Shown here one piece after another: positions 14,791-34,197 of a stretch of DNA of 64,000 nt. A program made the translations under genes and the position numbers. The notes beneath the pieces are model-generated. The model was not told where the DNA came from. It saw only the letters and a program-made list of their open reading frames with translations, and ran no database searches. The stretch comes from Hydrogenophilales bacterium 16-64-46 (lineage in GTDB: Bacteria; Pseudomonadota; Gammaproteobacteria; Burkholderiales; Thiobacillaceae). Positions within the stretch are counted from its first letter, which is position 1, and each line of letters begins with the position of its first letter. Location of the stretch: assembly GCA_002281775.1 (NCBI GenBank), contig NCGY01000002.1:62001-126000 (forward strand), in the 5' to 3' direction.

Positions 14791-15834
<1,044 letters not shown>

Positions 15835-15840
15835 CTATTT

Positions 15841-15966
15841 TTCCGGTCTCACGCTCCATGATGCAGACGATGTTGCATCGTCTCCCGCTTCTCCTCCCTG
15901 AGCGGGATGCCTTAATCCCCTTAAGGCACTTTCAGCCCCGACTCCTCCCTTGGTCGGGGCTTTTTT
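15841..15966 (+). ncRNA. candidate small RNA with two anti-Shine-Dalgarno loops
   Basis: Between hemB and engB, both on the minus strand, the plus strand folds into four consecutive hairpins: stems 15865-15872/15876-15883, 15884-15889/15901-15906, 15908-15915/15921-15928 and 15934-15942/15953-15961. The last is followed by six T, a complete intrinsic terminator for which no plus-strand gene exists. The loops of hairpins 2 and 4 are TCTCCTCCCTG and TCCTCCCTTG, complementary to Shine-Dalgarno sequences. This matches the plan of anti-SD small RNAs of Proteobacteria and perhaps the Betaproteobacteria toxic small RNA family. The 5' end is a guess; no clear promoter was found. Confidence 0.65.
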
Positions 15967-15973
15967 ATTCCGG

Positions 15974-16606
15974 CTACCCTGCCGGAACCGGGGCAGCGTC
16001 ACGGTCCCCCACAGGCTCCAGCAAGGATTCGATCCGCACGGCTGCTTCGTCCGCGCCCAGCCGGGACAGGCTGGAAAAAAGCTGCACGCTGACGCCGGGA
16101 TGCCCGACCAGCGCCTGCTTCACCTTGCGCAGCGTCTGCGCCCGTTCGCTGCCCGAGAGCTTATCCGCTTTCGACAACAGGATATGCACCGGCTTGCCGC
16201 GCGGTAGAAACCAGTCAAGCATCCGTTGGTCCAGCGGCGTCAGGGGATGGCGCGCATCCATGATCAGCACCATGCCTACCAGCGCGGTGCGCTCCTGGAG
16301 ATAACGCGAGAGCAATTCTTCCCACTGCGCCTTGATTTCCGGCGGCACCTTGGCGTAGCCGTAGCCGGGCAGGTCGACCAGATAGATGTTGGCATCGAGC
16401 TCGAAAAAATTGATGAGCTGGGTGCGACCAGGCGTTTTGGAGGTATAGGCGAGCCGGTTCTTGCGCGTCAAGAGATTGATCGCACTCGATTTTCCGGCAT
16501 TGGAGCGCCCGGCAAAGGCAATCTCGGCTTGGCTGGCAGGCAGATCGCGCAGCCGGGCGACCGAGGTGTGGAACTGGGCGCGATTAAGCACAGGCTTGGC
16601 AGTCAT
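15974..16606 (-). CDS. engB: ribosome biogenesis GTPase YsxC/EngB
   Basis: A 210-residue GTPase of the YihA/YsxC family, needed for 50S subunit assembly. G1 is [10 protein letters not shown]3 is DLPGYG, G4 is SKAD, and the family segment [11 protein letters not shown] lies between G1 and G3. I chose the ATG at 16606, where conserved family sequence begins ([12 protein letters not shown]); the longer frame overlaps the promoter region of the divergent cytochrome gene. The adjacent order hemB-engB-cytochrome c4 on opposite strands is common in betaproteobacteria. Confidence 0.93.
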
Positions 16607-16678
16607 ATTAGTTGACGCTAAACTACCCGCTTCCAAAAATTTTGCAATCCCCGCGTCTCGCAAGCTTCAGGAGCTGCC

Positions 16679-33902: not shown

Positions 33903-33949
33903 CCCGGCGGGGAGTGGTTCACGCCGCACTTCTTCGGTATAGTTCGGCT

Positions 33950-34158
33950 TCCCGTTGCGGGAGAGTGCGGCATCTGCCGCCGCCGAAGGCGCAATTCACC
34001 CGGAATCGCTCAGGCAAAAGGACCGCAACCGCCAGAATCCATTCTGGAAAATACTCTGGAGAGCGCAGACACCGGACACGAATCCGGACACTGCCACCGA
34101 AGGGGCAGCGGCGAGGTTCAATCCATCGAACCCGACCGTAATCTCTCAGGTACCAAGG
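33950..34158 (+). promoter_or_regulatory. tandem glycine riboswitch
   Basis: The leader of gcvT holds two similar aptamer cores: a first with GCCGAAGGCGCAA and CTCAGGCAAAAGGACCGC, and a second starting CTCTGGAGAG with CACCGAAGGGGCA and CTCTCAGGTACCAAGGACAG. The repeated order of GGAGAG, CCGAAGG and CUCAGG-AA-GGAC is diagnostic of the glycine (gcvT) riboswitch. Two aptamers bind glycine and turn the glycine cleavage genes on. Confidence 0.93.
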
Positions 34159-34160
34159 AC

Positions 34161-34197
34161 AGAGGGGTGAGGCGCATCCGGCGCTTCACCTCTTTTT
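34161..34197 (+). terminator. riboswitch-controlled terminator
   Basis: GGTGAGGCGC pairs with GCGCTTCACC (one G-U pair), with AGAGG/TCT extending the base of the stem, followed by TTTTT. It lies between the second aptamer and the gcvT start. It is the likely expression platform: formed without glycine, disrupted when glycine is bound. Confidence 0.8.

Follow-up and report, generated by a model that had tools for sequence, protein, structure and literature searches.

The DNA analyzed here, a stretch of 64,000 nucleotides from Hydrogenophilales bacterium 16-64-46 (the window), carries between the genes hemB and engB an RNA that belongs to a known family and is, judged by its sequence, clearly the Thiobacillus copy of anti-hemB (RF02837). 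We consider it probable that this copy is a trans-acting small RNA (sRNA) of about 100 nt, which is expressed from a sigma-E-type promoter, occludes ribosome binding sites (RBS) with its C-rich loops and represents the betaproteobacterial branch of an ancient locus linked to engB. The sigma-E-type promoter, the covarying 5' hairpin and the family linked to engB across the class seem not to have been described before (subscription literature lay outside the search). An earlier note on this DNA had described a regulatory RNA with anti-Shine-Dalgarno loops. This description is supported by stem covariation and by the C-rich motif retained in the loops of relatives; the promoter type and the class-wide link to polA and engB had not been foreseen.

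The sRNA consists of four adjacent hairpins on the plus strand (15866-15961), the last of which is a perfect terminator (Table 1). Sequence reading, folding and a terminator scan bore out this arrangement, which the earlier note had placed on the strand opposite to hemB and engB. The fold has a predicted energy of -59.2 kcal/mol (z = -5.1), and none of 200 shuffled sequences folded equally well. C-rich loop motifs are CUCCUCCC and UCCUCCC. The motifs of the two anti-Shine-Dalgarno loops had been recognized correctly in the earlier note; however, these loops measure 9 and 10 nt rather than 10-11 nt. Of the extent proposed there (15841-15966), the end is retained, whereas the start is now predicted at about 15864-15866, the bases before it being part of the promoter. 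The 3' end of the sRNA at 15966 converges with that of engB, the stop codon of which is at 15974. The gene polA is not found on the other side of the sRNA in the window, hemB occupying that place in betaproteobacteria.

Two further observations were made in the window. The listed start of hemB is a TTG at 15813 (15799-15813, minus strand), and a few codons downstream there is a candidate GTG start at 15801, for which TTTGGAGA, a sequence kept in relatives, resembles a Shine-Dalgarno motif. In addition, a tandem glycine riboswitch is located at 33948-34172 on the plus strand, with two aptamers that score 68.5 and 51.9 bits, both above the Rfam cut-off.

Table 1. Features of the hemB-engB region in the window.
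Feature	Position	Strand	Sequence, basis or remark
hemB (delta-aminolevulinate dehydratase)	14791-15813	-	Divergent neighbor of the sRNA; flank kept in relatives
-35 element of the putative sigma-E/RpoE-type promoter	15831-15836	+	GGAACT; conserved spacing, likeness to the rpoE promoter of the same genome
-10 element of the same putative promoter	15854-15859	+	CTCCAT (TC core); conserved spacing, likeness to the rpoE promoter
Hairpin 1 (5' hairpin)	15866-15882	+	GACGAU/AUCGUC; folding; no counterpart in the Rfam model
RF02837 (anti-hemB) match	15881-15968	+	73.9 bits, cut-off 49.5; model positions 1-81 align from 15881
Hairpin 2	15884-15906	+	CCCGCUU/GAGCGGG, first anti-Shine-Dalgarno loop CUCCUCCCU; sequence and folding
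Hairpin 3	15908-15928	+	UGCCUUAA/UUAAGGCA, loop UCCCC; folding
Hairpin 4, stem-loop	15934-15961	+	AGCCCCGAC/GUCGGGGCU, second anti-Shine-Dalgarno loop UCCUCCCUUG
Intrinsic terminator (hairpin 4 and U6 tail)	15934-15966	+	Terminator scan, sole terminator found
engB (yihA/ysxC GTPase)	15974-16663	-	Convergent neighbor; linkage kept in beta- and gammaproteobacteria

An Rfam scan, conservation of the hemB-engB spacer and covariation in the stems had been proposed in the earlier note as checks. The covariance model search identified anti-hemB (E = 2e-15 for the 64-kb window searched), and no other Rfam family scored above its cut-off in 15881-15968; the model of sX13 (RF02232) reached 19.4 bits (cut-off 50). 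The member of this family in Burkholderia cenocepacia, ncS04, is a 105 nt RNA that is expressed and bound by Hfq (PMC5688073, PMC4603805); its start was mapped by differential RNA-seq and its 3' end by RACE, it was detected by northern blot, and its level was constant across all tested conditions (PMC5688073). B. pseudomallei is another species for which the family has been listed (PMC3521395). The earlier note had pointed to a family of toxic sRNAs of betaproteobacteria instead. A place of the window RNA in that double-hairpin family (RF02278) is extremely unlikely: both follow the same CU-rich anti-Shine-Dalgarno principle and a weak match was obtained (25.3 bits, E = 0.0046 in a search of 401 bases), but this is half of the gathering score of 50, and the window RNA has four hairpins and not two. 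Moreover, a true RF02278 gene is present on another contig of the same genome (G000:C5:180991-181056; locus L032, 1501-1566; 54.5 bits), and thus RF02278 and anti-hemB are distinct families here. Sister copies of this RF02278 gene in two other Thiobacillus genomes have a common upstream motif similar to TTATTCTAATAACACTGA.

Among the genome of the window and those of its relatives, anti-hemB was found above the cut-off in 35 of 41. Of 30 loci excised from these genomes, 29 have both hemB and engB next to the sRNA. A pattern scan of named genomes yielded at least 119 stretches; the matches listed include Thiobacillus, Nitrosospira, Gallionellaceae, Hydrogenophilus, Azoarcus, Methylovorus, Oxalobacteraceae, Burkholderia, Paraburkholderia, Pandoraea, Comamonadaceae and some MAGs named Gammaproteobacteria, and most of the matches listed are flanked by hemB, engB or both. 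Both genes were found in at least 84 loci and hemB alone in at least 36 more, many of the contigs or loci being short. Nitrosospira briensis contains two adjacent copies of anti-hemB (L086, 671-778 and 795-913, minus strand).

RpoE (sigma-E) promoters follow the pattern GGAACTT and then TCNNA, and the sRNAs ErsA, MicA and RybB are known to depend on sigma-E. Upstream of the window sRNA we found GGAACT-N18-TCCAT (15831-15859), which is of the RpoE type by a test of sequence alone. The position of this element is conserved: among 137 distinct loci, 52 carry GGAAC at 50-55 nt upstream of hairpin 2 (mean of shuffled sequences 1.3, maximum 5), and in 50 of these 52 a TC follows 18-19 nt beyond it. 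Since the -10 element ends in TCCAT, the strict pattern GGAACT-N17/18-TCNNA missed the sRNA promoter in its own genome; instead, a weight matrix was built from the sRNA promoter sites and applied upstream of rpoE. The best site before rpoE in the genome of the window reads TGAACT...CTCCATG, and matching sites were detected upstream of rpoE in all four Thiobacillus genomes tested, with 0-2 of 200 shuffles as good. With this matrix no convincing site was found in the rpoE promoters of Burkholderia, Variovorax, Hydrogenophilus, Gallionellaceae and Noviherbaspirillum. The location of the -35 and -10 elements predicts the transcription start given above and an RNA of about 100 nt, which is close to the length of ncS04.

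The anti-hemB copies of Burkholderia and Comamonadaceae are preceded by promoter sequences that are not of the sigma-E type; in Comamonadaceae a sigma-70-like promoter is found at the same place. These other promoters and the unresponsive ncS04 (PMC5688073) indicate that sigma-E control is not universal in the family. Among the loci of the named set, 22 of the 26 that have a sigma-E-type promoter also have a C-rich loop in the terminator, compared to none of the 36 that have a sigma-70-like -10 element; this association tracks lineage and is therefore a correlation and not independent evidence.

Outside the betaproteobacteria the sRNA was searched for with a covariance model (R1) made from 49 sequences with the GGAAC promoter, mainly betaproteobacterial (alignment A1). 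Of the 235 genomes searched from the class Gammaproteobacteria as defined by GTDB, 85 contain a full-length match, and the matches extend to many other families of this class. From these matches 40 loci were cut out, 38 of them from outside the order of the window. Among the 38, a convergent engB is located downstream in 24, polA in the same direction upstream in 23 and either gene in 31, and in most of these gammaproteobacterial loci polA or engB flanks the sRNA without any match to hemB. The promoter is retained too: GAAC-N18/19-TC, in which GAAC precedes the start of the model by 25-28 nt, is present in 32 of the 38 loci, compared to 4% at random positions. When tandem copies and GAAAC variants are counted, 46 of 50 copies have a sigma-E-like promoter; in locus L302 each of four tandem copies has its own. 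Tandem arrays of two to four sRNA copies occur in several gammaproteobacterial families (L302, L298, L276, L277, L267, L294 and L296); several of them are located at polA or engB, and nearly all of the copies have their own sigma-E-like promoter.

These data bear on the possibility that the window RNA is an anti-hemB sRNA of the ordinary kind, expressed from a housekeeping promoter or some other one, and that GGAACT is kept for another reason, for instance as part of the promoter of hemB on the opposite strand. The constant level of ncS04 and the sigma-70-like promoter of Comamonadaceae agree with such a reading, and divergent hemB promoters could impose conservation. However, the distance between the promoter site and the RNA is fixed also in gammaproteobacteria, where polA and not hemB lies upstream, and in tandem copies, and a similar site precedes rpoE in the genome of the window. 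We therefore regard an ordinary promoter as unlikely and a sigma-E-type promoter as the better explanation.

The stems covary in the relatives, whereas the loops retain the C-rich motif. In A1, changes on both sides were found in 14 of 30 base pairs (88 cells compared to 24 after shuffling; 0 of 500 shuffles as high), among them five of the eight pairs of hairpin 3 and six of the nine pairs of hairpin 4. Hairpin 2 is invariant in A1; because hairpin 2 was part of the search pattern, its conservation there and in the collection scan is to some extent a product of the search. A second alignment (A2) holds 50 gammaproteobacterial copies, which were collected with the covariance model and not with the hairpin 2 pattern. 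Compensatory changes are present in 29 of 30 pairs of A2 (410 cells compared to 120 after shuffling, 0 of 500 as high); this alignment is fitted to R1 and so biased towards the model, but it far exceeds the shuffle control nonetheless. Hairpin 1 shows compensatory changes in three of six pairs in A1 and in all six in A2. The 101 matches from named genomes covary as well (590 cells compared to 187 after shuffling). The loop of hairpin 2 contains CUCCC or CCUCC in 46 of the 50 copies in A2, and 40 of them have a C-rich terminator loop. Selection acts strongly on the C-rich loops of the RNA, while the sequences of the stems vary freely.

The name given to the family by Rfam suggests a different role, in which the RNA would act in cis as an antisense regulator and adjust heme synthesis by pairing with the leader of hemB. 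The betaproteobacterial sRNA indeed adjoins hemB on the opposite strand; however, the direction of its transcription leads away from hemB, it has no overlap with the open reading frame of hemB, and most of the gammaproteobacterial loci described above are next to polA or engB and gave no match to hemB. Strong selection on C-rich loops next to freely changing stems also argues against pairing with the hemB leader, which makes regulation in cis very unlikely. We give almost no credence to the reading that the region is a terminator alone, with CU-rich loops by chance and no independent RNA. The U-tract does end 8 nt from the engB stop codon, but the engB strand lacks a T-run, the Rfam match, the covariation and the conserved promoter speak for an RNA, and the B. 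cenocepacia homologue was observed with three methods, namely differential RNA-seq, 3' RACE and northern blot (PMC5688073).

According to the trans-acting model that we prefer, the sRNA would be transcribed from its own promoter and end at its own terminator. A promoter of the RpoE/sigma-E type implies that the sRNA should accumulate once envelope stress frees sigma-E. The loops of hairpin 2 and of the terminator would then pair with G-rich motifs (Shine-Dalgarno or enhancer) in a number of mRNAs, probably assisted by Hfq, and this pairing would block translation of the targets. We searched 13 Thiobacillus genomes for GGGAGGAG-N4-10-ATG at the RBS and obtained scattered genes and no conserved target family; among the 30 target loci read, hflC (named from its sequence) was the sole recurrent gene, in two genomes other than that of the window. 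The starts of porin and OmpA-type genes gave no better duplexes than the background of the window (mean -8.8 compared to -8.0), a comparison that is weak because the start codons were guessed. While no reported function for anti-hemB was found in the literature, its link to the polA/engB locus together with the sigma-E-type promoter suggests a testable one in the envelope stress response.

Among known RNAs, ncS04 is the closest: in addition to the match above the cut-off, the two RNAs share a length of about 105 nt (predicted for the window RNA), the loop of hairpin 2 and the orientation between two genes on the opposite strand. They differ in that the Rfam model of anti-hemB lacks a 5' hairpin, which the Thiobacillus RNA has, and in that the sigma-E-type promoter and the C-rich terminator loop of the Thiobacillus RNA are both missing from most copies in Burkholderia and Comamonadaceae. 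RF02278 (ncS27, bdhR1) and Bordetella S17 resemble the window RNA in their CU-rich anti-Shine-Dalgarno loops and predicted RBS occlusion; however, RF02278 is a separate family of short RNAs with its own locus in the same genome.

ErsA of Pseudomonas aeruginosa is encoded between polA and engB, depends on sigma-22/AlgU and acts by Hfq-dependent base pairing (PMC8575079, PMC7565897, PMC8395346). The place next to engB, the link to an ECF sigma factor (putative in the window RNA) and the Hfq-dependent pairing (presumed there) are shared with the window RNA, the two being compared here by description and not by sequence, whereas ErsA is 132 nt long, has a U-rich unstructured domain and has polA and not hemB on its other flank. 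In three Pseudomonadaceae genomes R1 gave weak matches, none of them near polA or engB; in 800 kb of one of these genomes polA was not found. Two Pseudomonadaceae loci (L308 in G448 and L309 in G381) contain a conserved RNA-like element with AUCUCCCCCCAAGUGCCCCGC and the terminator loop CAUCCCCCAGA, which is a weak R1 match away from polA and engB.

The Xanthomonas sRNA sX13 adjoins polA and uses its C-rich loops to repress mRNAs that contain G-rich motifs (PMC3771888). It shares C-rich apical loops with the window RNA, but canonical sX13 loci (RF02232) have no clear sigma-E promoter. In four bridging genomes (G178, G104, G147 and G262) the R1 and sX13 models match the same sites, and in each of four canonical sX13 loci the only R1 match is the sX13 site (13.7-18.9 bits). 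In Escherichia coli, Spot 42 (RF00021) is encoded by spf between polA and yihA (engB), in the order polA> spf> yihA<. It has the same place by engB and hairpins with a terminator, but no CUCCUCCC loop; according to references in PMC3771888 it is regulated by cAMP-CRP. R1 matches spf weakly at the right place (14.8 bits, E = 1.6e-4 in 501 bases), the next match on the plus strand reaching 3.1 bits.

In Rfam, anti-hemB, sX13 and Spot 42 are three different families that no clan unites, and no publication was found that joins anti-hemB with ErsA, Spot 42 or sX13 (with subscription literature outside the search). The engB-linked locus may nevertheless be the one that elsewhere carries sX13, ErsA and, more remotely, Spot 42. 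We lean slightly towards common descent, in which anti-hemB, sX13, ErsA and possibly Spot 42 would derive from one engB-linked sRNA of the beta- and gammaproteobacterial ancestor that was under sigma-E control from the start. The stems would have drifted with compensatory changes while the C-rich loops were kept; Burkholderia, Comamonadaceae and enterobacteria would later have swapped the promoter, and terminator loops would have lost the C-rich motif in parallel. The authors of the sX13 study asked whether the polA loci of other bacteria encode such sRNAs (PMC3771888), a question that is answered in part here. If the proposed model is true, anti-hemB would belong to a deeply conserved sRNA arm of the sigma-E response outside the enterobacteria.
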